DNA of 64,000 nucleotides from Halalkaliarchaeum desulfuricum (lineage in GTDB: Archaea; Halobacteriota; Halobacteria; Halobacteriales; Haloferacaceae): contig NZ_CP025066.1 of NCBI RefSeq assembly GCF_002952775.1, forward strand, positions 2,356,001-2,420,000, read 5' to 3'. The position numbers and the translations under genes are program-made. The notes below the pieces were generated by a model. The model saw only the letters and a program-made list of their open reading frames with translations. It searched no databases and was not told where the DNA came from. Shown here piece by piece: positions 19,117-53,985 of this stretch; position 1 is the first letter of the stretch, and each line of letters starts with the position of its first letter.

Positions 19117-19119
19117 GGG

Positions 19120-19515
19120 TCAGCGCGCCCCTCCCTCGTCGGTAAGGGTGTACCCTCCGTCGCGTCCGCTGTATTTGACCTGATTGCGATCTTGCAGTGC
19201 AGACAGGGCCTCGTCCATCCGATCTTCGAGATCCACCGCGAGTTCCTCGCGGAGTTCGTCCCAGTCCAGGGTACCCTCGGATTCCAGAAGGTCGTGTATC
19301 CGGCTTTCGAGGACGTTTCCCCCGGGGTTTGTGGTGTCAGGACCGCCTTCCTCGGACTTCTCCGCGAGATCGAACCCGCGACGGCCCGCCTGCACCATCG
19401 TTCGCAGGAACTCGCTTTGGCTCATCCCCAACTGGTCTGCGTGTTCCCGCCACCGCTTTTTTTGATACGCCGGCACGTAGGTCTTGACGGCGACGCGTTT
19501 GTCCTCGCTGCTCAT
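19120..19515 (-). CDS. Ribbon-helix-helix-like protein, partner of the integrase (DUF5805-like)
   Basis: This is a 131-residue protein. Residues 1-50 resemble a CopG/ribbon-helix-helix unit: a strand (KRVAVKTYVP) followed by two helices (YQKKRWREHADQLG, then SQSEFLRTMVQAGRRG). The C-terminal half (about 70-125) has helices and a wing-like hairpin (NQVKYSGRDGGYTLTDEG) suggesting a second DNA-binding fold. The ATG at 19515 lies about 30 bases from a TATA-like ATAAATT on the reverse strand. It forms an operon with the integrase. The repeated TTCGGGATAA half-sites upstream make autoregulation likely. Confidence 0.8.
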   Translation of the reverse strand: MSSEDKRVAVKTYVPAYQKKRWREHADQLGMSQSEFLRTMVQAGRRGFDLAEKSEEGGPDTTNPGGNVLESRIHDLLESEGTLDWDELREELAVDLEDRMDEALSALQDRNQVKYSGRDGGYTLTDEGGAR

Positions 19516-19540
19516 ACATTTCCGGTCTGACGGACGCCCC

Positions 19541-19680
19541 TTCAATTTATCCCTACACTTCGGGATAAGGGCACTTACCCGGAGTTCTAGGACTACCATG
19601 GGGTGCCGAATGTGCTAGTAATCCCGAATTATAGCACTATTTCGGATTTGGATATGCCTATCATTCGGGATAAGAACATT
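19541..19680. promoter_or_regulatory. Repeated TTCGGGATAA half-sites and nested palindromes
   Basis: The 388-base gap between the RHH/integrase operon and btpA is AT-rich and holds no convincing gene. Half-sites of the form TTCGGGATAA occur near 19559 and 19664 on the plus strand and, as TTATCCC at 19547 and TAATCCCGAATTA around 19619, on the minus strand. A partial copy (TTTCGGATT) is near 19640. GTGCTA at 19612 pairs with TAGCAC at 19632, flanking one half-site. The site at 19547 overlaps the operon's TATA region. These features look like an operator and/or a recombination site. Confidence 0.55.
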
Positions 19681-19731
19681 AGCACCGAGTTTCCGTATTG
19701 AGTTGCTCTCTATACAACATAAATTACACTG

Positions 19732-19775
19732 TTGTGTCGCATTGATTAGGTTAATATTAGTATTGTGTCGTATTG
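19732..19775. repeat. Two direct copies of TTGTGTCGYATTG, 31 bases apart
   Basis: TTGTGTCGCATTG at 19732 and TTGTGTCGTATTG at 19763 lie three helical turns apart in the AT-rich gap between btpA and the RHH/integrase operon. Nothing else in the remainder of the gap (19680-19903) looks like a gene. Confidence 0.4.
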
Positions 19776-19903
19776 TCTCGGACAAATTTGACCAGCAGCT
19801 TCTGTTGTTCAATGACGTCAGAATCACCGTCCCACCGAGCCCGAACGGTGGATCTCGTTCGACTGGTTCACCTCCCTCCACCATCCAACACGTTCCAGTA
19901 CCG

Positions 19904-20710
19904 TCATCCCTCTCGTCGAACTCGCCTGACGAGCGCTTCGACCCGCTTTTCTTCGACTGGATTGCGGGGATTACCGTCGGACTTGAACGCGGAACCGACG
20001 ATCGCGCCATCAGCGACATCGAGATATCGTTCGACGTTGTCGACGGTTACCCCGCTTCCCACGAACACAGGGGGATTCCGGGACGTTTTGGCGACTGCAT
20101 CCCGGACGTTGGACACCTGTTCGGGATCAGCCCGCGTCCCCGTCGACGATCCGGAAACGAGCACGCCGTCTGCCAATCCCCGTTCGACGACGTCTTCGAC
20201 GGCCACCAGCGGATCGTACTCCGGCGAGATGGGCTGTGAGTGTTTGACATCGACGTCCGCCAGTACGGCGATTTCCGGATCGATCCGCTCCCTTAGGCGG
20301 ATCGTCTCGTGGGCACGCCCCTGCAGGTCACCCTGGTCGGTGATCCGGGCACCGGCGTGGACGTTCGCCCTGACGAACTGCCCCCCGATGGCGCCGGCGA
20401 CCGCGACGGCTGCGGGGACGTCGTTTCGCAAGACGTTGATCCCCACGGGCACGTCCACAACTCCCTGGAGTTCGGTCGCGATCCGCGTCATCGACGCGAC
20501 GGTGTGTTTCGGCACCTCATCGGGATAAAACGGCGCGTCGCCGAAGTTTTCCACCAGAACGGCGTCGACCCCTCCCCGTTCGAGCGCGTCGGCGTCGGCT
20601 GTTGCTCGTTTTACGGCGTCATCGATTCCCGTACTGTCGGGAGCACCGGGCAGGGGCGGCAGATGGACCATTCCGATCACGAGAAACTCACTCGGATTTC
20701 GCACGTTCAT
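19904..20710 (-). CDS. BtpA/SgcQ family protein
   Basis: This is a 268-residue TIM-barrel protein of the BtpA family, first linked to photosystem I assembly in cyanobacteria but of unclear role in archaea. Typical blocks are VIGMVHLPPLPGAP near residue 11, AVLVENFGDAPFY near 50, VGINVLRND near 90, FVRANVHAGARITDQG near 112, DVDVKHSQPI near 150, LVSGSSTGT near 187 and VFVGSGVT near 215. It is likely a sugar-phosphate or nucleoside-metabolising enzyme by fold. It shares a divergent promoter region with the NUDIX gene. Confidence 0.87.
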   Translation of the reverse strand: MNVRNPSEFLVIGMVHLPPLPGAPDSTGIDDAVKRATADADALERGGVDAVLVENFGDAPFYPDEVPKHTVASMTRIATELQGVVDVPVGINVLRNDVPAAVAVAGAIGGQFVRANVHAGARITDQGDLQGRAHETIRLRERIDPEIAVLADVDVKHSQPISPEYDPLVAVEDVVERGLADGVLVSGSSTGTRADPEQVSNVRDAVAKTSRNPPVFVGSGVTVDNVERYLDVADGAIVGSAFKSDGNPRNPVEEKRVEALVRRVRREG

Positions 20711-34799: not shown

Positions 34800-36050
34800 A
34801 TGTCGGTGCTTGCTAACATGCCACCCGATCCGGCCGATCCGGAGTGGGAGGACTGGGCGAACGAGAAACTGGAAGACGTCGACTTCGACGCCGAACTGGG
34901 TCGAGAGATGGCCAAAGACGCAATGCGATTGGCCAATGGGGAACTGTCCGAAAGTGAATTTTACGGGCGATACCACGAGCAGGTTCTCGAGGAGTTCGGC
35001 ATCGACAGGCGGGACGAGGCGATGGAACCGGAGGAGTTCAGCGGGGATGGAAAACGCGGCGGCGGAAACGACAGTTGCGGAAACGGCGGTGGCGGGAACG
35101 GCGGCGGGAACGACGGCGCGATGCCGGGCGTCCCGGGGGAAGAGCATTCGCGGCGTTCGGTACTCAAGACCGCTGGAATGCTGGGCGCTGCGGCGGTAGG
35201 CCTGGGAGGTCTCGAAGGGGCGGCGGGCGGCGGCCACGTCGATGATGACGACGGGGACGTTCAGATGGGAATGGCGATAAACACCAACCAGTGTGTCGCC
35301 TGCCTCCAGTGTGTGGAGGCGTGCAACGAGGAGAACAACAACACGGCCGACGCGCTATGGATGTTCGTCCATCGGTACGTCGAGGACGACTACCGGGATC
35401 GTGAGGCGTATCTACCGCGACCATGCCAGCACTGTTCGGAGCCGTCGTGTTCGACCGCCTGTCCCGTCCAGGCCCGATACAAACGCGAGGAGGACGGCAT
35501 CGTGATGACGGATTACGACCTCTGTGTTGGCTGTCGATACTGCGAGATCGCCTGTCCGTACGGCGTCAACTACCTCCAGTGGGGCGAGCCCCACGAACTC
35601 GACGAGTTCGGTGTCCACCTGGACATCGACACTCCCCGGGAAGCTGCCGGCGGGGTCCACGCCGGGGGAAATCCCCCGCAGGGCGTGATGGGAAAATGTA
35701 CGTTCTGTGTGCACCGCCAGGACTCCGACAACGAGGACCTCCAGGGGACGACCGCCTGCGAGGAGGTCTGTCCGGTCGACGCGATTCATTTCGGAGACCT
35801 AGAGGATTCCGAAAGCGCCCCGCGCCAACATCTCGAGGAACTCGACGACGACGCCAGCACGTTCAGGCTGCTCGAGTTCATGGGAACCGAACCGAACGTC
35901 ATCTACGTCGGGGACGAACCGGGAGCCCCTGCGACGCCAGTGGAGGGGCCACGGACGGTCGAAGACATGCACCGCGACCTGACCCGGGAACGCAAGGGGC
36001 GCCCACCCGTGGAATATCCCTCTCCAGGAAGTGATGAGGATGGCAGCTAA
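34800..36050 (+). CDS. Tat-exported [4Fe-4S] ferredoxin subunit with N-terminal extension
   Basis: This is a 416-residue electron-transfer subunit. A 115-residue N-terminal region (helical, then Gly/Asn-rich) precedes a twin-arginine signal SRRSVLKTAGMLG at about residue 117, an unusual internal position. Four Cys groups follow: CVACLQCVEAC near 162, CQHCSEPSCSTAC near 210, CVGCRYCEIAC near 243, and KCTFC with a distant ACEEVC near 300-325. This is the PsrB/DmsB/NrfC pattern with four [4Fe-4S] clusters. It overlaps the NrfD gene and heads the operon. An ATG two triplets inside an earlier frame (34782) is an alternative start. It probably relays electrons between the quinol subunit and an external partner. 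Confidence 0.86.
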   Translation: MSVLANMPPDPADPEWEDWANEKLEDVDFDAELGREMAKDAMRLANGELSESEFYGRYHEQVLEEFGIDRRDEAMEPEEFSGDGKRGGGNDSCGNGGGGNGGGNDGAMPGVPGEEHSRRSVLKTAGMLGAAAVGLGGLEGAAGGGHVDDDDGDVQMGMAINTNQCVACLQCVEACNEENNNTADALWMFVHRYVEDDYRDREAYLPRPCQHCSEPSCSTACPVQARYKREEDGIVMTDYDLCVGCRYCEIACPYGVNYLQWGEPHELDEFGVHLDIDTPREAAGGVHAGGNPPQGVMGKCTFCVHRQDSDNEDLQGTTACEEVCPVDAIHFGDLEDSESAPRQHLEELDDDASTFRLLEFMGTEPNVIYVGDEPGAPATPVEGPRTVEDMHRDLTRERKGRPPVEYPSPGSDEDGS

Positions 36051-37320
36051 AACCGAGTACAACTGGGATCACCTCTCGGGGCTTTCGACTCCCCTCCTGG
36101 GATCGATCGTCGTCCTGACAGCCATTGCACTCCTCACCCTCGAGGCGATCGTCCACCAGGTCCAGCACGGACTCGTGGTCACGGACCTGGCCGCACAGGG
36201 AACACAGGCGGGTGCCACCTGGGGACTGTACATCGGGACGTTCGAGTGGTTCGCCGGCATGGCCGTCGCAACCCTCGCGATCACGGGATACATCCGGTTT
36301 TCCGAACTCGACGACTACGACATGATCGCCCGGATCGCCAACATCTGGGCGTTCATCTGCGGACTCACTGCGGCCTGGCTGATTATCATCGACCTGGGGA
36401 CGCCCCATCGCGTGTTGACGATCCTCGCCCAGTGGCCCTCGACCGTGGTTCACTCGCCGCTCGCGTGGGACGTGACCTTCGTGACGACGCTTCTGGTCTT
36501 CACCCTGACCATGCTCACGATCTCGCTTCGGCTCGACTTTCTCCGGACCGAAGGACCACTCCCCTTGCATGCCGACCTCGTCAGACGCGTGGTCAGCGCC
36601 GGGGCAACGAACACGGAGGTTCCGAAACTCGAATCGATGCGAAAGTGGCTCGGACTCGGCCTGATGGTGCTGGCGTTCACGGCCGGGATGATTCCCGGAA
36701 TTCTCCTCGGCGTCGTCGGCCAACAGCCGGGCTTTTTCGGACGCGAGCAGGGGATCGTGTTCGTCGTCAACGGGCTGGTCGCCGGGACCGCGCTCGTGAC
36801 GCTTACAGCCGGGGTATTGCGGCTGCAGTTCGACTGGCGGGACAAACTCTCAGACAGGGTACTGATCGGACTCGGCCAGGCGCTCACTACCTTCGGGTTC
36901 GTCTACCTGGTCGTGATGTTCAACGACGTTCTCCAGGGGCTGACAGGGATGCAGCAGTTCTACGAACAGCGAATCAGTGATGCGGTCCTGTTCGGCTCGC
37001 TCTCGCCGTTCTTCTGGGGGAGTATTCTCCTCGTGGGCGTGCCAACGCTACTGCTGGCGATATTCAAGTATCGGCTGGGCGTCAAATACATGAACGTCCT
37101 CGCGCTTTCGGCGATGCTTGGGGTCTGGATCAAGTCGAACCTGAAAGTCATCGAACCACTGGTGTTCCCCGTGTTGCCCGGGTTCATCGGGAGTTACACC
37201 CCGACGCTCGTCGAGTGGATCATCACAGTCGGCGCGATCGCGATCGCGCTGCTTCTGTTCCTGCTGTTCGCGAAAGTGATCCCGCTTGCACGTGATCCCA
37301 GCAGGGAGGTGAACCGCTGA
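36040..37320 (+). CDS. NrfD/PsrC family quinol-interacting membrane subunit
   Basis: This is a 426-residue membrane protein with about ten segments, related to the polysulfide reductase and NrfD quinol-oxidising subunits (RIANIWAFICGLTAAWLIII near 95, LGTPHRVLTIL near 120, FFWGSILLVGVPTLLLAIFK near 325). It exchanges electrons between menaquinone and the iron-sulfur subunit. In-frame starts at 36031 and 36034 add two or three residues. All overlap the end of the ferredoxin gene, as expected for coupled translation. The stop overlaps the start of the following small gene (TGATG). Confidence 0.87.
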   Translation: MAAKTEYNWDHLSGLSTPLLGSIVVLTAIALLTLEAIVHQVQHGLVVTDLAAQGTQAGATWGLYIGTFEWFAGMAVATLAITGYIRFSELDDYDMIARIANIWAFICGLTAAWLIIIDLGTPHRVLTILAQWPSTVVHSPLAWDVTFVTTLLVFTLTMLTISLRLDFLRTEGPLPLHADLVRRVVSAGATNTEVPKLESMRKWLGLGLMVLAFTAGMIPGILLGVVGQQPGFFGREQGIVFVVNGLVAGTALVTLTAGVLRLQFDWRDKLSDRVLIGLGQALTTFGFVYLVVMFNDVLQGLTGMQQFYEQRISDAVLFGSLSPFFWGSILLVGVPTLLLAIFKYRLGVKYMNVLALSAMLGVWIKSNLKVIEPLVFPVLPGFIGSYTPTLVEWIITVGAIAIALLLFLLFAKVIPLARDPSREVNR

Positions 37321-37538
37321 TGGTCGTCCCCGAGATCCCCGTCGGTGCGCTCGTCATCGTCTTTCTCATTTTGATGCCAGTGTACGTCACCGTCGCCGCG
37401 TGGCTGTTCGCCGAACCGCGGGAGTATCGGACGCCGGCAATCGGGTTCGTCTACATGGGAGCGATCACGGTCGCGATGATCGCCTCAACTGCACTGCTCG
37501 GAATCGGGTTCTGGGTGATCGCGAACCTGCCGCTATGA
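37320..37538 (+). CDS. Small membrane protein of the NrfD operon
   Basis: This is a 72-residue protein with two membrane segments (about 8-28 and 43-68) and a short charged loop (AEPREYRTPA). It starts within the stop codon of the NrfD gene and is followed 28 bases later by the double-ferredoxin gene. It is likely a structural accessory subunit of the same complex. No family is recognised. Confidence 0.78.
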   Translation: MVVPEIPVGALVIVFLILMPVYVTVAAWLFAEPREYRTPAIGFVYMGAITVAMIASTALLGIGFWVIANLPL

Positions 37539-37566
37539 CACGAACGATTCACAGACCAAAAGTACC

Positions 37567-38424
37567 ATGACAGATCCACAGCACTCGACAACAGACGCAA
37601 ATTGTGCGGACTGCGATGCGAACTCGGCGGACGAACCGGGCGTGTGTCCCACGAAACGGCGGCGGCTACTCGCCGGACTGGCCGTCGGCGGATCGGCCGC
37701 GTTGGCCGGCTGTACAGGACTCCTCGGGACGCCCGGGGAGTACGAGGTCCGCGGAAGCGACGACGTGTACGACGTCTCGTTCGAACAAGCGGAGCGCACG
37801 ATCGAAATTCGGGGGAGTCAAACGGTGTTGCGTGCGGCCGAAGAGCAGGAAATCTCGGTTCCGTACGACTGCCGTGCCGGTTTCTGTGGCGTCTGTCTCT
37901 CGCGGGCGGACGACGACGCCACGACGGCGGTACACATGGCCACCAACAACTACGATCGGCTGACCGAGGCGGCCGTCGAGGCGGGCTACTTCCTGCCCTG
38001 TACGAGCCAACCACGGGACGATTTCTCAGTGACGACCGGTGTCTCTCCGGGCGAACTCGACGAGTACGCGCCGGATGATCCGGACAACGACGACGAGCCG
38101 AACGACGAACCGGACGACGTCGGGAGGCGACACGCGATCAAGTACCTCAACGAAGGGTGGATTATTCCCGTCGGGGAACGACAAGATCTACTCCGTGCCG
38201 CCGAAGACGTCGGTCTCGACGAACTCCCGTATCAGTGTCGGGTGGGTCGGTGTGGAGTATGCCTCTCCCGTATCGACGGGGACGCGACGGAACTGGTCGA
38301 ACACGAATCGATCGATTATGGCCCACTCGACGAGGACGCACTGCGCGATGGATACGTGCTGACGTGTACCGCACAACCTCGTGGGGAATTCGAACTCGAG
38401 ACGAACAGGGCGGGCGATCTCTAA
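37567..38424 (+). CDS. Tat lipoprotein with two [2Fe-2S] ferredoxin domains
   Basis: This is a 285-residue protein. Its signal carries RRRLLAGLAVGG and the lipobox LAGC at about residues 46-49, so it should be exported folded and tethered by a lipid. Two plant-type ferredoxin domains follow, with CRAGFCGVC and a final Cys in LPCTSQP (about 98-145), and CRVGRCGVC with LTCTAQP (about 215-260). Both match C-x4-C-x2-C-xn-C. They are joined by an acidic linker. Two such clusters outside the membrane suggest an electron wire for the NrfD complex, connecting to an acceptor encoded elsewhere. Confidence 0.85.
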   Translation: MTDPQHSTTDANCADCDANSADEPGVCPTKRRRLLAGLAVGGSAALAGCTGLLGTPGEYEVRGSDDVYDVSFEQAERTIEIRGSQTVLRAAEEQEISVPYDCRAGFCGVCLSRADDDATTAVHMATNNYDRLTEAAVEAGYFLPCTSQPRDDFSVTTGVSPGELDEYAPDDPDNDDEPNDEPDDVGRRHAIKYLNEGWIIPVGERQDLLRAAEDVGLDELPYQCRVGRCGVCLSRIDGDATELVEHESIDYGPLDEDALRDGYVLTCTAQPRGEFELETNRAGDL

Positions 38425-43848: not shown

Positions 43849-44736
43849 CTACAGATCCGGCGCGTTGTTCAGATCTCTCGAACCGTCGTCCTCCGACGAT
43901 TTTCCGGGGACGGAGCGGACGTTCGATCCGCCCGGGCGGACGGATCCACCGCCGTCGAACGGTGACGATTCCCCCAGGGCCCGCTTCGCTGTCGCGCGGA
44001 CGAAGTCGCTTTCGTCGTCGTTTGCAGTCCGTGTGAGCGCCTCCCGGGCCCGGTCGTCGTCGATTCCGCCGAGCAGTTCAGCCGCCCACTCGCGGACGCG
44101 TTCGTCCGGATCGGACAGCCCTTCGACGAGCGTCACCAGTGCATCCTCGCCGCGTGCTTTGAACAGCGATATCATCGCGTTCCTGCGCACCGCCGGGTGA
44201 TCGTCCTCGAGCATCCTCTCGAGCACTGGGAGGCTCTCATCGCAATCGAGCGAATCGAGCGTCACCACCGCTTCAGCACGAACCCACGGGTTGCTGTCGG
44301 ACGCGACCGCCTCGACGGTCTCGCGGACCGACTCGTCGCCGTGGGTCGCGAGCGCTTCGACGGCAAACTGACGCACATCCGGGTCCGGATCCTGCAGTAC
44401 GGCAGTCCGGAGCGGCTCCACAGCTGCCTCTGTTTTCGAGCGCTGTGCGAGCGCGACGGCTGCACGGCGGCGTTCGACGCGGTCGCCGTCCTGCAACGCC
44501 GAACAGAGTTCCTCGACAGTCGCGTCCGCCACTGGGGCTGTGTCGGTCGCGGTGAACTCTTCGGGATCGGCGGTGCCGAGCGTCACGTCGCGGCTCACCT
44601 CGATCTCCGAGAGGTCTTTCGGACCGTCACCGGCCCCTGGACTCCGGGCCGGATTCAGCCGCTCGTCCGGGGCCTTCCCGTTTCTGTCGTCGCTATCCTT
44701 GTCGTGTCGGTCGTCTTTCACCGGTTCCTCTGTCAT
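43849..44736 (-). CDS. HEAT-repeat protein at the end of the nar operon
   Basis: This is a 295-residue cytoplasmic protein. An acidic, disordered N-terminus (about 1-70) is followed by five or six HEAT/PBS-lyase-like helical pairs, such as DRVERRRAAVALAQR, DPDVRQFAVEALATHG, NPWVRAEAVVTLDS, HPAVRRNAMISLFKA and DERVREWAAELLGG. It ends in a Gly/Ser-rich tail. Its start overlaps the stop of the upstream membrane-protein gene (ATGA), so it is translated with the nar genes. It may be an assembly or scaffold factor for the reductase. No catalytic residues are evident. Confidence 0.85.
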   Translation of the reverse strand: MTEEPVKDDRHDKDSDDRNGKAPDERLNPARSPGAGDGPKDLSEIEVSRDVTLGTADPEEFTATDTAPVADATVEELCSALQDGDRVERRRAAVALAQRSKTEAAVEPLRTAVLQDPDPDVRQFAVEALATHGDESVRETVEAVASDSNPWVRAEAVVTLDSLDCDESLPVLERMLEDDHPAVRRNAMISLFKARGEDALVTLVEGLSDPDERVREWAAELLGGIDDDRAREALTRTANDDESDFVRATAKRALGESSPFDGGGSVRPGGSNVRSVPGKSSEDDGSRDLNNAPDL

Positions 44737-45596
44737 CGTTCTCCCTCCCGTACCGCCATCGTTGCCGCGCCGACTGCGACCGCAGTCACGGCGGGAAGTG
44801 ATACCGGAACGCCGGCGGCGAGGACGAGACCGCCCCCGAGCGCAGTCACCTGTCGTCCCTGCCGTAGCGCTCCCGAGATCGCCGCCACGGCACCGCCGAC
44901 GCCGGCGGCCACGAGCAAAAGCGGGACGCCGACGACGCCGAGGCCGCCGAGCAGCACCGCGCCCATCACTGTCGGGGCCCCGGTGCCGATCCCGACAACG
45001 AAGGCTCCGACGAAGATTCCGAGCGCTGCGTCGAGACCACCGACGCCGATCCACAGCGGAAGCGTCGCCAGGCCGACGAACAGGAGGACGCCACCCAGGG
45101 TTCGCAACGTCGCCGGTTCGACGCCGAGCGCCCCGACGATCGAGGCCCCAGTTCCGATCAGTAGCGCTCCCGTGACGCCCCATGCGGCAATCGATCGGGC
45201 CGACGTGGCGGTCGGAAGCTGGCTGGCGGCAGCAACGCCGCTCCCGGCCAGCGTCGCGCCGACGGCGGGCAGGAACGCGCCGTCCGCGAGTGCCCCCAGA
45301 ACCGCGAACGCGCCGACGGTCACGAACCCGACCCTCCCGAGGTCGCTGTCGACCGTCGCGGCGATCACGAACCCGAGTGCTCCAAGCGCCAATAGCGCCA
45401 AAAGCCCCCAGTCGATCGCGGTTGCGAATGGAGGGAGCACCTCCGCGAACCTGCTCTGTCCGACTGCGCCGACAGTTGTCCCGATAGCCACAGTCGCGAC
45501 TGCGACGCCGAGCACGATCGTCCGGAAGAGCCGCGGGCGCCGCTGTGGACTGACGGCCGCCGATCCCCGAGACGACAGCGACGTGGTTTCGGTCAT
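44733..45596 (-). CDS. Polytopic membrane protein of the nar operon
   Basis: This is a 287-residue, Ala/Gly/Val-rich protein with about nine hydrophobic segments and few charged residues. It shows no cofactor ligands that I can recognise. It overlaps both neighbours by four bases (TorD-like gene upstream, HEAT gene downstream), so it is translationally coupled. It could help insert or anchor the reductase. No family name is assigned. Confidence 0.8.
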   Translation of the reverse strand: MTETTSLSSRGSAAVSPQRRPRLFRTIVLGVAVATVAIGTTVGAVGQSRFAEVLPPFATAIDWGLLALLALGALGFVIAATVDSDLGRVGFVTVGAFAVLGALADGAFLPAVGATLAGSGVAAASQLPTATSARSIAAWGVTGALLIGTGASIVGALGVEPATLRTLGGVLLFVGLATLPLWIGVGGLDAALGIFVGAFVVGIGTGAPTVMGAVLLGGLGVVGVPLLLVAAGVGGAVAAISGALRQGRQVTALGGGLVLAAGVPVSLPAVTAVAVGAATMAVREGER

Positions 45597-46261
45597 TGGT
45601 CTGTCGAGGCGAGTGCCCGGTGTTCGGCCGCTACGAACGCCTCGAGGAAGTCCACGAGATCCCCGTACACACCGGTGTTCGGCTCCGATTCTATTGCGTC
45701 GCTCAGCTGCCGGGCGAAGACTGTGAGGTGGCGATCGAGGAAGTCGCGTCTGGCTGCACCCGCGTCCGGATCGCCGACCGCCTCCCGGCGGGCGAGGTAG
45801 CTCGCAAACTCCAACTGGAGGCGGAGGTTGTCGTGATCCTCCCGGTTCGAGTCGTCGACATCCAGCCCGTAGTAGTCGTACGCCCGGGCGAGGTCGAGGT
45901 TGAGGTCGTGCCAGGACACGTCGTCGCGGTGAGACGACTCGTACAGCGGGACCGAGGGCTTCGGGACACCGACCTCGAAGATGTCGTTGAATCGCGCCTT
46001 CAGCGTGCGCAGGTCGTCGTCAGTCTCCAACTGGGGCGCGTCGATCTCGAGGCCGGCACGCTCGACTAGCGTGGTAAGCTCTTCCGACAGGCTCCCGTCG
46101 TCGATCGCTTCGTGCAGCCGTTCGTCCGGTTCGTCGAACAGGCGCACGAGGAGACCGTACACGGTCGCCCGACTGGCGAGTGTCGTATCGACCTCGCCGT
46201 CCTCGAGTTCCACTGTACGCGATTCGTCAGCGGAGTCGACGCTCGTACCGTGTCCGGTCAT
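45593..46261 (-). CDS. narJ: TorD/NarJ-type molybdoenzyme chaperone
   Basis: This is a 222-residue, all-helical cytoplasmic protein of the TorD/DmsD family. The family-like blocks are SRATVYGLLVRLFDEPDERL near residue 28, LKARFNDIFEVGVPKPSVPL near 85, then YESSHR, and a later DLARAYDYYGLDV, DNLRLQLEFASYLARRE and FLDRHLTVFARQL. These chaperones bind the Tat signal of the catalytic subunit and prevent its export before molybdenum cofactor insertion. Here the client is NarG. It overlaps genes on both sides by four bases. Confidence 0.87.
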   Translation of the reverse strand: MTGHGTSVDSADESRTVELEDGEVDTTLASRATVYGLLVRLFDEPDERLHEAIDDGSLSEELTTLVERAGLEIDAPQLETDDDLRTLKARFNDIFEVGVPKPSVPLYESSHRDDVSWHDLNLDLARAYDYYGLDVDDSNREDHDNLRLQLEFASYLARREAVGDPDAGAARRDFLDRHLTVFARQLSDAIESEPNTGVYGDLVDFLEAFVAAEHRALASTDQ

Positions 46262-47085
46262 TGTTCCACGTTCCTGATCCCGTAGACGGTCATCACGAGC
46301 ACCGCGACGATCGCGAGTCCGCCGACGGTCCACAACACCAGTTCGAGCACCGACGGGCCGGGCTCGGGGTCCATCGGGTAGTGGTACCACTCGCTTGCGG
46401 CCTTGATTCCGCCCCGCTCTGCGTTGTCGCCATCGAACACGGCGAACGCGACGTTCAGGCGCTGGTCGGTGGCGATCTCGGTCCGCTCCCGGTCGTCAGT
46501 AGTTAGATCTCGGGTGAAGACGACACTCCATTCACCGTCCTGGTAGCTGGACTCGGTGGAGACGATCGGCTCGTCCATCTCCGTCGTCGATCCCATGCCG
46601 CCGGCGTACAGCTCCTCGACCTCGCCGTCTGCGGTCCAGTACCAGACGTTCACCGGCTCCCCGTCGCTACCCATCTCGATGGGCGGTTCCTTGTCCTGTT
46701 CGAACGGTAACTGCACTGCTACAGCGTCGGCGAACGCCCGGGGATCGTCGACGTGTTCGTCCGCGGTGGGGTCGTCCCACGTGAGCCTGATGTATATCCG
46801 TTCGTCGGTGTGAGCAGTCTCGACGTCAGTCAGCCCGACCGACGTGTCTTCGTATCCGGGTACGCCGCTTTCGGCGCTCGAGAGGACGACAGTCTGCGAA
46901 TCGACCTCCGCCCACGCCTCCGCACCGGGATCCTCGAGCCCGTCCTCTTCAGTCATCTCGGTTATGGGTAGCTGGTTTACTCCGGTTGTATATCCCAGTG
47001 CCGGGCCAGAAATCGCCAGTACCACGACCGCGACGACGACCAGCCCCGCCAAAAGGGCGAGGGAACCGACGCGACGGTCAGTCAT
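46258..47085 (-). CDS. Haem b-type gamma subunit (ethylbenzene dehydrogenase-like domain)
   Basis: This is a 275-residue protein with an N-terminal signal or anchor (ALLAGLVVVAVVVLAISGPAL), an external domain of about 200 residues and a C-terminal membrane segment (LELVLWTVGGLAIVAVLVMT). The external domain has the immunoglobulin-like pattern of the EB_dh/DdhC group (RIYIRLTWDDPTADEHVDD, FADAVAVQLPFEQD, WSVVFTRDL, RLNVAFAVFDGDN). That group binds a haem b as gamma subunit of type II DMSO reductase-family complexes. It replaces the membrane NarI of bacteria. Gene overlaps confirm the operon. Confidence 0.83.
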   Translation of the reverse strand: MTDRRVGSLALLAGLVVVAVVVLAISGPALGYTTGVNQLPITEMTEEDGLEDPGAEAWAEVDSQTVVLSSAESGVPGYEDTSVGLTDVETAHTDERIYIRLTWDDPTADEHVDDPRAFADAVAVQLPFEQDKEPPIEMGSDGEPVNVWYWTADGEVEELYAGGMGSTTEMDEPIVSTESSYQDGEWSVVFTRDLTTDDRERTEIATDQRLNVAFAVFDGDNAERGGIKAASEWYHYPMDPEPGPSVLELVLWTVGGLAIVAVLVMTVYGIRNVEQ

Positions 47086-48118
47086 CGGCGAACACCTCCA
47101 TTTGGTACTGGTTTTCCCGATCGTTCGTCGTGAGTATCTCCATCAGTTCACTGTCTTCCCCGACACGGACACGTTCCCGCTCGCGTTCGAGTGTGTCCAG
47201 CGCGTCGTGGACGTCCGGGCCGAACAGTTCCTCGAGGTACGTCGGTGGAATCCTGTCGGCGTCGACAGTCTCGCCTTCTTCCGTGTGCTGTCCCGGCGAC
47301 ATCGGCGGCACGTAGAACACGTTGGGGTCAGTATGGTACTCCGCGTGCAGGGGGAGCGCAACCTCCCACTCCTCGACGAGCTTGTGGATTGGACCGGTCG
47401 GGTCGTCGAGTCGACCGACGTACCGGAGCATCGTCACGCACGAATCTGCACACGCGGGAGCGTGTTGTTCGCCGTCGGGCCCGTTACCCTCGATCCGAGG
47501 GTAACAGAAGATGCACTTTTCGGCCGTCTTCTCCTCCATGTTGAAGTAGATCTTGTGGTAGGGGCATCCCTCGACACAGTGCCGGTAGCCGCGACACCGC
47601 TCCTGATCGACGAGCACGATCCCGTCCTCGCTGCGCTTGTAGACGGCCTGTCGGGGGCACGCCTCGACGCAGGAGGGATGTGTACAGTGATTGCACAGCC
47701 TGGGGAGATAGAAGTAATACGAGTTGGGGTACTGGCCGGCCCCCTCGTCTTCCTCCCAGTTGACTCCCCACTCGGGGTCTTCCGCCGGCGCGATGTGCTC
47801 GTCGCTCCCCTCGAGAAGCACCTCCTCGTGGTTGAACTCCCAGTGGCGACCGTACCCCTCAATGCTGGGTATCTCGCCGGGAGACCGTTCGGTACGGTCC
47901 TCGGACGCCCAGCCGTCGCCGACGTCCTCCCAGCCACGGGGATACCCCTGTCCGGGCTTCGTCTCGACGTTGTTCCAGTACATGTACTCCCGCCCGGGTT
48001 CGTCGGTCCAGTTGGTCTTGCAGGCGATCGTACACGTCTGACAGCCGATACACTTGTTCAGGTCGAGCACCATCGCGATCTGGTTGTCGACCCCGTCTGC
48101 GGTCTCCGTGTAGCTCAC
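47078..48118 (-). CDS. narH: Nitrate reductase beta subunit NarH
   Basis: This is a 346-residue electron-transfer subunit with four Cys groups: CIGCQTCTIAC near residue 23, CNHCTHPSCVEAC near 142, CRGYRHCVEGC near 174 and KCIFC plus a distant ACADSC near 203-225. The third group has Tyr where the NarH-type [3Fe-4S] site normally has Trp. There is no signal peptide, so it should be exported together with NarG. The start overlaps the narG stop by four bases. Long acidic insertions separate groups 1 and 2, as in haloarchaeal NarH. Confidence 0.92.
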   Translation of the reverse strand: MSYTETADGVDNQIAMVLDLNKCIGCQTCTIACKTNWTDEPGREYMYWNNVETKPGQGYPRGWEDVGDGWASEDRTERSPGEIPSIEGYGRHWEFNHEEVLLEGSDEHIAPAEDPEWGVNWEEDEGAGQYPNSYYFYLPRLCNHCTHPSCVEACPRQAVYKRSEDGIVLVDQERCRGYRHCVEGCPYHKIYFNMEEKTAEKCIFCYPRIEGNGPDGEQHAPACADSCVTMLRYVGRLDDPTGPIHKLVEEWEVALPLHAEYHTDPNVFYVPPMSPGQHTEEGETVDADRIPPTYLEELFGPDVHDALDTLERERERVRVGEDSELMEILTTNDRENQYQMEVFADD

Positions 48119-51039
48119 TGTGAGTCACCTCCTTTCGGCCGCACCTCGACGTGGGTGTCGTTGTTCACGCCGGTCGGACCCCAGAAGTTCGGGAAGAAGT
48201 GGAGATGTTCGCCGTTTTCCTCCGGGTACTGGATCAACTGTGTCGGCTTCATCCGCATGGGGAGCAACGTGTTGAAGTTCTGCCGATTGGGGTACTGGTA
48301 CCGCTCCCACGCGAAATACTGCATCGTCGTCCCTCTGGGCATACTCGGGTAGTACTTCGCGGTGCCCTCGATCTCGCCGAGTTCGTTGTGCATCACGACG
48401 GTGTCGCCGTCCTCGATCCCGCGCTCTTTGGCGTCTTCTGGATGGAGCCACACCATCGGTCCGCCACGCTGGAGCCGGAGTGCCTTCGGATCGTCTCGCC
48501 ACGTCGAGTGAACGCCGAGCCGGTTGTGTGGCTGAATGTACTCGAGGGGATACTCGTCGGTGTCCTGTGTCTCGAGTGGCTCCTTGAAGGTGGGAAGCTC
48601 CTCACCGAAATCCAGGAACCAGTCGTGGTCGATGTAGTACTGCTGGCGGCCGGTGTACGTCCGCCAGGGAACCTTATCCTCGATGTGGTCCTGCCACGGA
48701 ACGTACGGGTTGTCCTGATCGAGTTCCCCGGAAGATGTCCAGTGAGGGTCGACCCCGAGGAACCGTTGGGGGTGCTCGACCGTGTCCTCGAACGTGATCT
48801 GCTCGTCGAGATAGTCCGGGTTCGTCTCGTCGGAGTTTTCGAGAATAAACTCCGCCGCCGCCAGCCCGTCGTCGAGGGCACCCTCCTCGCCGGTAAGCCA
48901 GTCGCGGACGTAGTCGTCGTGGATCGACTGGAGGTCGATCTCCCGGTCGAACGACCGGTCCGGTATCGGATCGATACCGCGCTCCTGGGCGATCTCCTGG
49001 ACTTTCTCGGCCAGCAGCCGGAAGATCTCCCAGTCGGGCTTGGACTCGCCCATCGGCTCGATCGCGGGCGTACACGGATGGACGTACGTGTGCATGTCCG
49101 TTACGTTCAGGTCGTACTTCTCGTACCAGGTCGCCGCCGGGAGCACGATGTCGCTGTACAGGGCCGTTGTGTCCATCCGGAAGTTGATGTCGACCACGAG
49201 GTCCAGCTTCGGCCAGAGGTTCTCCTCGACGAACCGACCGCCTTTCGCCTGCCCGAAGTAGTTGGCCCGCCAGATGAACATCGTGTTCGGATCCGGGCGG
49301 GTTCCGTCCTCGCGCTCTTCGGGGTGCATCGGCATCCATCCCTCGTCGATGGATTCCCTGATTCGCTCTGCGGTGTCGTACTCGTCGGGTACCCACTCCT
49401 GGTCGTCGTCCTCGAGTACGTCCAGAATATCCGCGTGATAATAGGTCCACAGCGTCGTCGGCATCCCGCGGACGTCGCCGGTCGGGAACGAGAGGTTCTG
49501 CCAGCCTCTGAACAGCCAGATCTTCTCCTGACCGACGTAGTGGTCGAAGCCGGTCCCGTTCTCCCCGAGGTTCCCGGTCAACGTGAGCAACAACTGTAGC
49601 GCGCGGTTTCCGAGGTCGTTGTGGTACCAGGCGTTTACGCCCTTCCCGTGAACGATCTTCCCCCTGTCGACGTCGGCAAACTCCCGTGCGATGCGCTGGT
49701 GCGTTTCGCGGCCGACGCCGGTTTCCTCGTGGACGCGTTCGGGGGTATACTCCGCGAGCCGGTCGCGGAGATTGTTCCACACAGACCGCACGTGCACGTC
49801 GCCGTCCGCGGTCGCGACGGTCGTCTCGACGTCGAGTTGCGGATCGAAGTCGATCTCGATCGAGGACTCGAAGTCGAGTTTACCCTCACGGGTGCCGAGC
49901 GATCCGGGAGCGACCCGGAGGTTGTCGTCGGCATCGACCATCACCATCGCGTGTTCCGGGTCGTCGGCGTCTATTCCGACGTCGTCCGCACGAAGGAACT
50001 TCCCGGTGTCCTCCCGGACCAGAATCGGCATGTCGGTTTGCTCTTTGAGGTGAGCCTCGTCGTACAGTTCCTCCTCGACGATGACTCTCGCCATGCCGAG
50101 CGCGAGTGCTGCGTCGGTGCCGTAGTCCGGACTGAGCCACTCGTCGGTGTGAATTGCCGTTGCGGAGTAGTCGCTGAAGACGCCGACGGTCTTTGCGCCC
50201 CCGTAGCGGGACTCGGTGAAGTATTTGGCGTCGGGGATGCGTGTCATGTTGATGTTCGATCCCCACGCGATGAGGTAGTCGGCGTTGTACCAGTCCGAGC
50301 TCTCTGCGTTGTCAGTCTGGTGACCCCACGTCAGCGGTTGGCCCGGTGGCAGGTCACAGTACCAGTCGTAAAACGAGTGGCTGACGCCGCCCAGCAGGTT
50401 GACAAAGCGCGTACCGGAGGCAAAGGAGACGGGGCTCATCGCGGGGATCGGGGTGTAGCTGTCGATCCCGTCGTACTCGCCCTCCTGGACCTTCTCGATT
50501 ACGTGTTCTGCGATCTCCTCGAGCGCTTCATCCCAGGAGATGCGCTCCCACTTGCCCTCGCCGCGTTCCCCGGTCCGGCGGAGCGGATATTTCACGCGGT
50601 GATCCGCGTTGACGTAGTCGCTGAAGCAGGCTCCGTTCTGACAGCCCCGTGGGTTGTTCGTGGGCAAGTCGGGGTTGATGTCCGGATAGTCGCTGGCCTG
50701 CTCTTCGCGCCACACCTGGCCGTTTTTGACGTAGACGTTCCACGAGCAGCTACCGGTACAGTTGATCCCGTGGGTAGAGCGGGCGACGCTGTCCCAGTCC
50801 CACTCCTCGCGGTAGAGGTCCTCCCACTCGCGGTACGGGTAGTTGCCGATCGGATCGTCGACGGTCTCGAGCCCGCCGAAATTCAAAAGCTCGGATGCGG
50901 CACCGAGCCCGCTGGCGCCCGCCAGGGCGGCGAGACCGGTTCCCTGCAGGAAGCGACGGCGGTCGAGGCCGCCCTCGCTTCCGGAACTGTTCGCGTCGTC
51001 GGTTCGGTCTGTCGTGTCGTGTGGATCCGTCTTGCTCAT
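48115..51039 (-). CDS. narG: Respiratory nitrate reductase alpha subunit NarG (external, Tat-exported)
   Basis: This is a 974-residue molybdopterin bis-guanine dinucleotide enzyme reducing nitrate to nitrite. The twin-arginine signal is RRRFLQG at residues 27-33. The FS0 cluster site is H90-x3-C94-x3-C98-x34-C133, with the His ligand typical of NarG. Asp229 in WYCDLPPG matches the molybdenum-ligating Asp of NarG, and TWGHQTDNAES follows. WNNLRDRLAEYTPERVHEE and LPAATWYEKYDLNVTDMHTY are further family blocks. The neighbours NarH, TorD, NarO and NarK argue for nitrate rather than chlorate, selenate or dimethyl sulfide, although chlorate side activity is common. Confidence 0.92.
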   Translation of the reverse strand: MSKTDPHDTTDRTDDANSSGSEGGLDRRRFLQGTGLAALAGASGLGAASELLNFGGLETVDDPIGNYPYREWEDLYREEWDWDSVARSTHGINCTGSCSWNVYVKNGQVWREEQASDYPDINPDLPTNNPRGCQNGACFSDYVNADHRVKYPLRRTGERGEGKWERISWDEALEEIAEHVIEKVQEGEYDGIDSYTPIPAMSPVSFASGTRFVNLLGGVSHSFYDWYCDLPPGQPLTWGHQTDNAESSDWYNADYLIAWGSNINMTRIPDAKYFTESRYGGAKTVGVFSDYSATAIHTDEWLSPDYGTDAALALGMARVIVEEELYDEAHLKEQTDMPILVREDTGKFLRADDVGIDADDPEHAMVMVDADDNLRVAPGSLGTREGKLDFESSIEIDFDPQLDVETTVATADGDVHVRSVWNNLRDRLAEYTPERVHEETGVGRETHQRIAREFADVDRGKIVHGKGVNAWYHNDLGNRALQLLLTLTGNLGENGTGFDHYVGQEKIWLFRGWQNLSFPTGDVRGMPTTLWTYYHADILDVLEDDDQEWVPDEYDTAERIRESIDEGWMPMHPEEREDGTRPDPNTMFIWRANYFGQAKGGRFVEENLWPKLDLVVDINFRMDTTALYSDIVLPAATWYEKYDLNVTDMHTYVHPCTPAIEPMGESKPDWEIFRLLAEKVQEIAQERGIDPIPDRSFDREIDLQSIHDDYVRDWLTGEEGALDDGLAAAEFILENSDETNPDYLDEQITFEDTVEHPQRFLGVDPHWTSSGELDQDNPYVPWQDHIEDKVPWRTYTGRQQYYIDHDWFLDFGEELPTFKEPLETQDTDEYPLEYIQPHNRLGVHSTWRDDPKALRLQRGGPMVWLHPEDAKERGIEDGDTVVMHNELGEIEGTAKYYPSMPRGTTMQYFAWERYQYPNRQNFNTLLPMRMKPTQLIQYPEENGEHLHFFPNFWGPTGVNNDTHVEVRPKGGDSQ

Positions 51040-51269
51040 GTGGGTTCACCGTCGTAGGCGTCTGTCGGACCGGCGTCGGCTGCCGGCCTCGTCTCGATCG
51101 GGACAGTGCTCAACGCGAGAACTCCGCCCGCAAGCGCGAGCGCGATCCCCCCGCCGGAAACGATACCGATCTCGAGGGCGACAGCGACGGCCAGAACGCC
51201 CCCGAGCTTCGTGACCCGGTCGGTCCACCGGTACGTCCGGCGGTCCAGGACCGGCAGTCGCTCACGCAT
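51036..51269 (-). CDS. Small membrane protein between narC and narG
   Basis: This is a 77-residue protein with a basic N-terminus (RERLPVLDRRTYRWTDRVTK) and two hydrophobic stretches (about 22-38 and 41-55), then an acidic tail. It overlaps narC upstream by 8 bases and narG downstream by four. Its place in the operon suggests a structural role in the Nar complex. No family is recognised. Confidence 0.78.
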   Translation of the reverse strand: MRERLPVLDRRTYRWTDRVTKLGGVLAVAVALEIGIVSGGGIALALAGGVLALSTVPIETRPAADAGPTDAYDGEPT

Positions 51270-52746
51270 CCTCGTCACCTCCTGACGGTTCCGGGCCGTC
51301 CCCGGAGTCGTCGGCGAAGCCACCCAGCGACGCGTAAACGATAAGCCACGCCACGATCGGCAGGACGATCGCAAGCGAAAGCAGGATGGGGTTGAGGCTG
51401 CTCGTCGCGATGCCGGTGAGATCCGAGACCACCGTGTTCATCCCGCCGAGCGACAACACCGACAGGAAGGCGATGCCCGCCACGCCGGTGGCGGTCTGCC
51501 AGTCCCGCTCGAGGGGATCGACAACGAAGTGACCCGGCTCCTCGTACCGGTCGATGAACGGCCACGCGATGACCACGAGGATAACGAGTCCCGTGACCAA
51601 CACGCCGCCAACGAACTCGACAGAAAGCGGCCCGACGCCGGCCCAGTCGGGGAGCAGCTTCAGGATGCCGAACATCCACATCAGATACCAGTCCGGCAAG
51701 ACCAGCTCGGGCGTGGTCGCCGGATCGTACGGTCCGTACTCCGCGATGTTGTGGACCGAGAAGAATCCGGACAGCAGTGACAGCGTCCCCAGCGTGAGGA
51801 AGAACACGATCGCACTGAGAGCCGCCTGTTGGGGGAACAACGGCAGCCCGACGACAACGCCGTCGTCGTCCCGATCGACGGTTCTGTCGCCGTCGGCCGA
51901 CGCCGCGGCTTCGGGCTGTCCGCCGTCGGTGGTTGTGGGTTCGTTCGGGAGACCGAGTTCGGCTCCCCCATCCTCAGCCGACGCCGTCGCCGGGGCATCT
52001 GCGGGCGTCACCGGTTCCCCGGTGAACGCTTCGTCGCGCGGCCCCTCGGTGTGTTTCTGTCTATAAAGGATCACCATGTGCGCTGCGAGCAGGATCCCGA
52101 TGAGAAGCGGGATCACGAGCACGTGCAGGAAGTACATTCTGGGGATCGAGAGGGCAGTCGGGTAGTCGCCTCCAAAGAGAACCCAGGCGATTTCGCCGCC
52201 CACGATCGGAATCGAACTCGCGACGACGTATCCGATGCTCGCTGCCTCCGCGGCGAAGTTGTCGTACGGGAGCACGTACCCCGTGAACCCGGCGGCCATT
52301 CCAAGAACCACGAGCAAAACACCGATCACCCAGTTGGGCTCTCGCGGGTTCCGGTAGGCGCCCTGGAAGAACACCCGCATCATGTGCAGCGCGGCACTGG
52401 CGATGAACAGGTGTGCTGCCCAGTGGTGGAGCCGCCGAATGAACATCCCGTAAGAGATGTCGTGGGTGATCGCGAGCACGCTCGCGTACGCATGGGGTAC
52501 TTCTTCTCCGTGGTACTGGGCGACGCTTCCCTGGTACTCCACCATCGCAGTGATCGGCTGGTAGAAGAACCCGAGGAAGATTCCGGTCAACACCAGCACC
52601 ACGAAGCTGAACAGCGCGATCTCCCCGAGGAGGAACGAGTCCTCCGCCGGGAACGCTTTGCCGAGGGTACTTCGCTCGGAATCGAGATCCAGCCGCTCGT
52701 CGAACCACGCGTAGCCGCGCCGGTAATAGCGGTCGAGTCGGCTCAT
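51262..52746 (-). CDS. narC: Cytochrome b subunit NarC
   Basis: This is a 494-residue cytochrome b/b6-type quinol-oxidising protein. The N-terminal haem-binding part has HDISYGMFIRRLHHWAAHLF and ASAALHMMRVFFQGAYRNPR, with paired His. LPDWYLMWMFGILKLLPDWA carries a PDWY form of the PEWY Qo motif in the C-terminal half. A long acidic linker (about residues 240-300) joins the cytochrome b N- and C-terminal regions. With NarB it forms a bc-like module feeding NarGH. Its 3' end overlaps the small membrane gene. Confidence 0.9.
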   Translation of the reverse strand: MSRLDRYYRRGYAWFDERLDLDSERSTLGKAFPAEDSFLLGEIALFSFVVLVLTGIFLGFFYQPITAMVEYQGSVAQYHGEEVPHAYASVLAITHDISYGMFIRRLHHWAAHLFIASAALHMMRVFFQGAYRNPREPNWVIGVLLVVLGMAAGFTGYVLPYDNFAAEAASIGYVVASSIPIVGGEIAWVLFGGDYPTALSIPRMYFLHVLVIPLLIGILLAAHMVILYRQKHTEGPRDEAFTGEPVTPADAPATASAEDGGAELGLPNEPTTTDGGQPEAAASADGDRTVDRDDDGVVVGLPLFPQQAALSAIVFFLTLGTLSLLSGFFSVHNIAEYGPYDPATTPELVLPDWYLMWMFGILKLLPDWAGVGPLSVEFVGGVLVTGLVILVVIAWPFIDRYEEPGHFVVDPLERDWQTATGVAGIAFLSVLSLGGMNTVVSDLTGIATSSLNPILLSLAIVLPIVAWLIVYASLGGFADDSGDGPEPSGGDEDA

Positions 52747-52747
52747 C

Positions 52748-53401
52748 TCACAACACCCCCACCGGGGCCAGGAAGTCCCCGGTCGCGATGAGGTAGCCCT
52801 CGGCGCTCAACGTGATCGGCAGCTGCGGGAGGGGACGGGGGGGAGGCCCACCGACGACTGCCGCCCCCTCTAGCGGATCGAACTCCCCGATGTGGCACGG
52901 ACACACCAGGATATTCCCGTCGACCTGACTCACCATACACGCCATGTGGGGACAGATCTTCGAGAACGCCGCGTACCCGCTCACCGTGTGTTCGAGTGCG
53001 GTTTCGTCGGCATACTCCGCTTCGGGATGACGAACGAGTAACGTCGGTGCGTCCCTGATGTCCGGTCGCGGTTCCGGAAAGACGGTGATGACATCCCCGT
53101 ACTCGAGGTCCTCCTCGTGGATCCGCTCGCCGTCAGCGTCCACGAGGTGAATGTTCTCCTCGTATACGGGTCCGGTGTAGGCAGGATCCAACACGTCGAC
53201 GTCCCGGAGCGCGGAAAGCGGCGCCGCGAGACTCAACGCGGAGGCGATGCCGCCGACCGTGACGACCCCCTTCGCGAGAGTTCGGCGCTGTACCTGTGCC
53301 CGATCATCGCGGAAGATACTCGGATACCCCTCGCCATCACAAGGCCCCTCACATGGCTCGCTGGAGTTTCCAGAGCGCTCGTTGTTTGAATCGGCTGTCA
53401 C
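52748..53401 (-). CDS. narB: Rieske iron-sulfur protein NarB
   Basis: This is a 217-residue protein. The QRRTLAKGVVTVGG motif near residue 38 is a Tat-type signal, also serving as membrane anchor. The Rieske [2Fe-2S] ligands are in CPHMACMV near 150 and CPCHIGEFDP near 168, a C-x-H/C-x2-H arrangement. The prolines GGPPPRPLPQLP near 184 form the usual Pro loop. It starts within the end of the upstream membrane-protein gene and is followed by narC after one base. Confidence 0.92.
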   Translation of the reverse strand: MTADSNNERSGNSSEPCEGPCDGEGYPSIFRDDRAQVQRRTLAKGVVTVGGIASALSLAAPLSALRDVDVLDPAYTGPVYEENIHLVDADGERIHEEDLEYGDVITVFPEPRPDIRDAPTLLVRHPEAEYADETALEHTVSGYAAFSKICPHMACMVSQVDGNILVCPCHIGEFDPLEGAAVVGGPPPRPLPQLPITLSAEGYLIATGDFLAPVGVL

Positions 53402-53985
53402 GGTGTCTCACCCCCGAGATCGTGACCTCGGTACTCTGCGACCTCGACGTGGGGCATGAACCACGCGTAAAACGCAGCAGTCATCGCGGCCAGCGAGACG
53501 AACATTCCCGTCGCGTACAGGCCGATGTACTGGGTGCGCACGAGGGTCGCGAACTCGGCGGCGAAAAGCATCGCACAGGCGATCGCGAGCACCGACAGCG
53601 CACCGACCACCAACAGCCCCTCCGAGGACTCGACCCCGGGGTGGTACTCGACGACCCACCGCTTATCAGTGACAAACCAGTCCGGAACAACGAACTGTCC
53701 ACCGTCGGCCTCGGGGGAAGTGGGCCGGACGGTTGACTCCATGAACCGATGGAGTCCGGCGAGCACGCCCATCAGACCCAGCAGCGCGATCCAGGTGATG
53801 ACGCCCACCTGGCTCGGCGTGAGCTTTCCGGGAACCGCAACGAACCCGTCGAGCGGTCTTATGTCCGTGAGAGCGTAATTGATCTCCAGAACCCCCGTAG
53901 GGAGCCCGCCGTAGAGGGCGGTGATCCACATCGGGACGATCGCCGCCGCGACGACGAGCCAGACGACAGCCGCTCGTCGCCTCAC
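53398..53985 (-). CDS. First gene of the nar operon: four-segment membrane protein
   Basis: This is a 195-residue protein with four hydrophobic segments (about 7-25, 62-78, 122-140, 152-172) and an external or cytoplasmic loop of about 40 residues (VVPDWFVTDKRWVVEYHPG). The position and size match the NarA-type gene that opens haloarchaeal nar operons. No redox ligands are obvious. It overlaps narB by four bases. A function in anchoring the cytochrome bc-like module is a guess from position. Confidence 0.8.
   Translation of the reverse strand: MRRRAAVVWLVVAAAIVPMWITALYGGLPTGVLEINYALTDIRPLDGFVAVPGKLTPSQVGVITWIALLGLMGVLAGLHRFMESTVRPTSPEADGGQFVVPDWFVTDKRWVVEYHPGVESSEGLLVVGALSVLAIACAMLFAAEFATLVRTQYIGLYATGMFVSLAAMTAAFYAWFMPHVEVAEYRGHDLGGETP

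Follow-up and report, generated by a model that had tools for sequence, protein, structure and literature searches.

A four-gene operon of Halalkaliarchaeum desulfuricum AArc-Sl, at positions 34800 to 38424 of the 64,000 nucleotides analysed here (the window; contig NZ_CP025066.1, positions 2,356,001 to 2,420,000), is likely to encode a quinone-coupled electron conduit that has no catalytic subunit of its own and serves a partner encoded elsewhere. The NrfD-family membrane subunit would bind menaquinone or menaquinol near the outer membrane face, and electrons may pass through the four [4Fe-4S] clusters of an exported ferredoxin (FdxN) and on to both [2Fe-2S] domains of a lipoprotein tethered to the membrane, and this lipoprotein would in turn exchange electrons with that partner; the four products presumably form one complex. 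What is new here is a variant of a known NrfD type, a core that lacks an enzyme and whose carriers can be exchanged. If this is true, haloarchaeal respiration in general makes use of a quinol module whose exported carriers are swappable and which has no fixed enzyme, and in sulfur-respiring species several exported reductases share it as their outlet from the quinone pool.

The operon and its four products

All four open reading frames (ORFs) listed in a preliminary description of this DNA were found where it had placed them, on the plus strand:

34800-36050, plus strand: FdxN, exported ferredoxin with four [4Fe-4S] clusters and a Ferredoxin_N domain ahead of an internal twin-arginine translocation (Tat) motif, 416 amino acids (aa)
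34827-35012, plus strand: Ferredoxin_N domain (PF16947) of FdxN, residues 10-71, Pfam E 1.3e-28
35151-35156, plus strand: Tat twin arginine of FdxN, residues 118-119, invariant in 18 sequences
36040-37320, plus strand: NrfD-family membrane subunit, ActC/DsrP-like, with conserved quinone-site residues D118, S139 and D144, 426 aa
37320-37538, plus strand: 72-aa membrane protein, the conserved third gene of the module
37567-38424, plus strand: Tat lipoprotein with two plant-type [2Fe-2S] domains in series, 285 aa
37762-38040, plus strand: [2Fe-2S] domain 1 of the lipoprotein, C102, C107, C110 and C145 (Pfam and alignment)
38143-38409, plus strand: [2Fe-2S] domain 2 of the lipoprotein, C224, C229, C232 and C267 (Pfam and alignment)

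FdxN has an alternative start, the ATG at 34818. Its gene overlaps that of NrfD by 11 bases, the ATG of the 72-aa gene overlaps the NrfD stop codon and the lipoprotein gene lies about 29 nt further downstream; because of these overlaps and the short gap, we read the four genes as one operon.

The NrfD protein matches PF03916 (Pfam; E 7.1e-16, 59.1 bits against a curated cut-off of 25.8), and a profile of 15 NrfD sequences matched only ActC structures (E 1e-32 to 3e-25). Residues S139 and D144 align with Ser164 and Asp169 of ActC and D118 with His139, the three ActC residues that are listed for the quinone site (PMC8076601). In the NrfD family the quinone site includes a Ser in transmembrane helix (TMH) 3 and an acidic or His residue in TMH2; S139 is invariant in the 15 sequences, and the acidic D118 is present in the window protein.

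C-terminal to its internal Tat motif, FdxN has 16 cysteines for four [4Fe-4S] clusters, all of which, like the twin arginine, were invariant in an alignment of 18 relatives. Its Y247 sits between two cysteines of one cluster, like Y113 of QrcC, a tyrosine that is essential (PMC13059093). The internal position of the Tat motif, noted in the preliminary description, proved to be the standard layout of Ferredoxin_N proteins, in which the N-terminal domain precedes the motif as it does in FdxN. Unlike in FdxN, the domain is not tied to a ferredoxin in some relatives: in six further operons that encode the molybdopterin subunit MopB (L158, L160, L161, L162, L166, and L167), it stands directly ahead of MopB as an ORF of its own, about 80 residues long, and may therefore be linked to exporting or assembling the complex and not to the ferredoxin.

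Two PF00111 domains were found in the lipoprotein by Pfam, both with the C-x4-C-x2-C...C ligands and the beta-grasp fold of plant-type ferredoxins, and its eight cluster cysteines, twin arginine and lipobox Cys49 were all invariant in an alignment of 13 relatives. Structures were predicted as single chains. The AlphaFold model of the lipoprotein shows two ferredoxin folds (mean predicted local distance difference test score, pLDDT, of 66, with most domain blocks at about 75-87), in agreement with Foldseek, while the model of FdxN was of low quality (mean pLDDT 41.6) and was set aside, and the Ferredoxin_N domain gave a three-helix model of low confidence. The two [2Fe-2S] domains within one lipoprotein are often more alike than domains of different lipoproteins (45-91%), suggesting that the arrangement of two clusters in series was made or homogenised repeatedly.

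Distribution of the module

The source genome (G000) is one contig of 3,313,120 bases and holds three copies of the module, in the window, at 2.100-2.104 Mb and at 2.788-2.794 Mb, each composed of an exported 4x[4Fe-4S] protein with Ferredoxin_N, an ActC-like NrfD, a membrane protein of about 70 aa and a Tat lipoprotein with two [2Fe-2S] domains. The gene order is lipoprotein-FdxN-NrfD-small at 2.100-2.104 Mb; at 2.788-2.794 Mb the lipoprotein gene is transcribed divergently to FdxN-NrfD-small, and a second FdxN and a PsrC-type NrfD come next after the latter. All three copies are present in a sister genome of the same genus (G318), the window arrangement recurs in G366 and that of 2.100-2.104 Mb in G120, and the tandem lipoprotein of genera g24, g50 and g36 is paired with FdxN and a PsrC-type NrfD, within a cluster that also holds an ABC transporter, a CoxG-like protein and a further Tat lipoprotein. 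Lone tandem [2Fe-2S] genes occur too (L039 in G318 and L178 in G283). Among plasmid relatives no tandem [2Fe-2S] protein was found, only single-domain ones, and a scan of named genomes gave one relative, a Natrialbaceae metagenome-assembled genome from brine (69%), on a contig that ends after the third gene.

The preliminary description had named two ways in which its proposal could fail, and neither was encountered. The lipoprotein is not a lone gene unconserved with NrfD, since the tandem form stands repeatedly beside NrfD/PsrC-type and FdxN genes, and the set also occurs without a neighbouring reductase, as it does in the three G000 copies, the three G318 copies and most class-wide relatives. 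No MopB gene lies beside any copy of the module, the three of G000 included.

In apparent sulfur reducers (L042-L047, L176, and L177, with copy C in L035/L040) we also observed a conserved cluster of genes for a tandem [2Fe-2S] lipoprotein, PsrC, FdxN, a Tat lipoprotein with YVVTDD repeats, a CoxG-like protein, an SsuABC-type ABC transporter and a protein of an unknown family.

A MopB-FeS-NrfD-small-TorD arrangement is present in relatives, and the module could thus be a decaying remnant of a dimethyl sulfoxide (DMSO)/Psr-type operon after loss of the catalytic subunit. Against this, the ratio of nonsynonymous to synonymous substitution rates (dN/dS) is 0.07-0.14 for the four genes in comparison with G318 and therefore indicates purifying selection on all of them, the ligands are invariant, three copies are kept in two species and a new lipoprotein has been added. 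We regard decay as ruled out by purifying selection and as the least credible of the explanations considered here.

Haloarchaeal NrfD loci and their exchangeable partners

We scanned 82 haloarchaeal NrfD loci with profiles built for this analysis; since these were mostly the best NrfD matches, the set is biased to high scores and its proportions are not population estimates. MopB was found within 4.5 kb in 8/82 loci, while 74/82 had no molybdopterin subunit. Weak MOPB hidden Markov model matches in L034, L035 and L085 (E 1e-4 to 1e-6) fall in the FdxN ORF and are not catalytic subunits. The absence of a catalytic subunit, noted in the preliminary description, is true of the window locus but is no peculiarity of it, being the usual state in the haloarchaeal NrfD family.

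Ferredoxin_N was nearby in 68 of the 82 loci, and 11 were lone NrfD genes without FdxN beside them (family f4), which were set aside as dispersed extra copies. The partner adjacent to FdxN was a tandem [2Fe-2S] protein in 8 loci, an EB_dh haem-b protein in 7 (plus a divergent one in G366; EB_dh confirmed by Pfam) and a halocyanin in another 8, always directly upstream on the same strand; the remaining FdxN loci had no such partner and often a Mrp ATPase downstream. A maximum-likelihood NrfD tree contains two well-supported clades that each mix [2Fe-2S] and EB_dh partners, the second of which also holds MopB forms as sister. Such mixing is explained most simply by a single quinone core that swaps its outer electron carrier. 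The idea of an electron wire in the preliminary description is reasonable and gains strength from the fact that other one-electron carriers can take the place of the [2Fe-2S] partner; the interpretation given there is partly supported.

Sulfur respiration and direction of electron flow

H. desulfuricum AArc-Sl is a facultative anaerobe that grows on H2 or formate with sulfur or polysulfide and does not use nitrate, arsenate or thiosulfate (PMC6176080). Polysulfide reductases of the PsrA type were found in 9/11 genomes with the tandem module and in 9/69 others (p=9e-6, in a phylogenetically clumped sample), and counted by genus in 4/6 versus 7/52 (p=0.009). This enrichment favours sulfur respiration, to which the module probably belongs, and exported sulfur reductases would be its preferred partners; two anchor-less sets lie at 2.84 Mb. 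Nine molybdopterin oxidoreductases have been reported for the strain (PMC6176080), and a whole-genome Pfam search gave nine MopB places, none of them beside the module copies.

Several points weigh against the conduit. It rests on genes and sequence comparison, and G366 and G120 carry the module but have no PsrA match. Plant-type [2Fe-2S] centres are usually well below menaquinone in potential, and flow from quinol to [2Fe-2S] would therefore be uphill unless that potential is raised or proton motive force drives the flow. Moreover, the position of ActC Arg395 is taken by Ser366 in the window NrfD (Ser or Ala in its nearest kin, Lys in most others); since the equivalent Arg358 of QrcD is dispensable (PMC13059093), Ser366 does not exclude function.

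An NrfD core can transfer electrons in both directions, and which of them applies is decided by the potential of the [2Fe-2S] clusters. In the direction of Qrc, an exported donor enzyme would supply the lipoprotein with low-potential electrons, with which FdxN-NrfD would reduce menaquinone while drawing protons from the cytoplasm. QrcC is the second-best match of FdxN (2e-39), and [2Fe-2S] ferredoxins are usually of low potential. Furthermore, QrcABCD is an electrogenic menaquinone reductase that tolerates the loss of Arg358 (PMC13059093), the position that is Ser here, and the donors of the strain are H2 and formate (PMC6176080). On the other hand, the exported formate dehydrogenase of this genome has its own cytochrome b (L104), and the haem-b and halocyanin partners within the same NrfD family point to quinol oxidation. 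We consider the Qrc direction possible but rather unlikely.

One Psr operon of AArc-Sl has been described as lacking psrC (PMC6176080), which was also seen directly in the genome here. It raises the question whether the module is the detached quinol-oxidising half of two anchor-less molybdenum (Mo)-reductase sets at 2839-2848 kb (G000; L105 6051-14882), a PsrA-like A-B-TorD set and an ArrA-like set with a lipoprotein iron-sulfur (FeS) subunit. Both lack NrfD in G000 and G318, while their homologues in most other genomes have PsrC, and the leader of the FeS lipoprotein in the second set is nearly identical to that of the copy C [2Fe-2S] lipoprotein. However, the sets show no genetic linkage to the module, they are two against three modules, and in G366, G120 and the g24/g50 genomes the modules occur either without such a set or with one that is complete. 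We consider a dedicated role of this kind possible but rather unlikely.

Two psrABCD operons were observed elsewhere in the genome (L106 and L107, at 1.925 and 0.122 Mb of G000), a recent duplication in which the PsrA proteins are 91% identical and the TorD proteins seem to show no difference in the stretch that was read.

Comparison with known complexes

The module resembles alternative complex III (ActABCDEF) in that NrfD aligns with ActC structures and, judged from the alignment, shares its Ser/Asp quinone-site residues, and in that an FeS chain on the P-side would hand electrons to a diffusible or tethered carrier. It differs in having neither c-type haem subunits nor the second NrfD (ActF) nor the MopB-like part of ActB, and in its carriers, which are [2Fe-2S], haem-b or copper proteins. 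No CxxCH motif occurs in the four proteins, and no c-type haem subunit of the ActA/ActE kind was recognised among the neighbours.

With haloarchaeal Mo reductases of the DmsABC/PsrABC type the module shares the FeS-NrfD-small order, MopB versions of which occur in G382, G129, G286, G029 and G213 and in six further loci, whereas the module lacks MopB and TorD and its FdxN has its own Tat signal and Ferredoxin_N. The best NCBIfam matches are DsrO for FdxN (3.7e-45) and DsrP for NrfD (3e-15), as in DsrMKJOP, both far below the curated cut-offs (154 versus 200 bits and 56 versus 350 bits); DsrM, DsrK and DsrJ are not encoded alongside. Likewise, FdxN resembles QrcC of QrcABCD, including the conserved Tyr between cluster ligands, but neither a QrcA multihaem cytochrome nor QrcB was found in the operon or among its neighbours.

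A candidate alternative complex III in haloarchaea

The transfer of electrons from quinol to halocyanin has been called unresolved for haloarchaea without bc1 (PMC3403918). With narC as query, a bc-type cytochrome b was absent from 99 of 391 haloarchaeal genomes. NrfD at E<1e-30 was present in 96/99 of these versus 45/292 genomes with the cytochrome, a contrast whose p-values ignore shared descent; the corresponding figures are 80/80 versus 12/21 within family f4 and 12/12 versus 8/72 within family f3. Two of the three exceptions (G007 and G093) have weak NrfD matches only and, judged by the size of their genomes, look like strictly anaerobic sulfur reducers.

Because NrfD is nearly complementary to bc-type cytochrome b and stands with halocyanin in eight operons, haloarchaeal FdxN-NrfD-small is a candidate for a minimal alternative complex III, which would replace the bc-type complex and reduce exported halocyanin, EB_dh or tandem [2Fe-2S] carriers, the window operon being the variant of a sulfur respirer. 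We put this forward tentatively, at a little less than an even chance. The contrast is a correlation, and the proposal is weakened by a second bc-type cytochrome b match besides NarC in G000 itself and by the placement of the window NrfD in a clade different from that of halocyanin loci. Nevertheless, the NrfD family may be the missing complex III replacement in about a quarter of the haloarchaeal species sampled and, if so, would offer a concrete candidate to fill the quinol:halocyanin gap that PMC3403918 states for haloarchaea without bc1.

Neighbouring genes and other observations

The window also holds a nitrate reductase operon at 44700-53985 on the minus strand, omitted from the preliminary description, which encodes narB (Rieske), narC (cytochrome b), narG, narH, an EB_dh haem-b subunit and a TorD-family protein. 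It lies about 10 kb downstream of the module, on the opposite strand:

47078-48118, minus strand: narH
48115-51039, minus strand: narG
51262-53401, minus strand: narC/narB

Its proximity, with narGH about 10 kb away in the same window, would make this reductase a catalytic partner at hand. It was rejected as such, since it has its own quinol subunits (the Rieske/cytochrome b pair narB/C, as well as EB_dh) and since G318, which has no close NarC, lacks the whole stretch at its syntenic locus but retains the module. Furthermore, the strain does not grow with nitrate (PMC6176080), and we therefore find such a partnership very improbable. The presence of the operon in a strain reported not to use nitrate (PMC6176080) is an observation in its own right.

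Finally, an integrase-like gene coincides with a dip in G+C content (0.58) at 18043-20000 of the window, which is possibly an integrated element.

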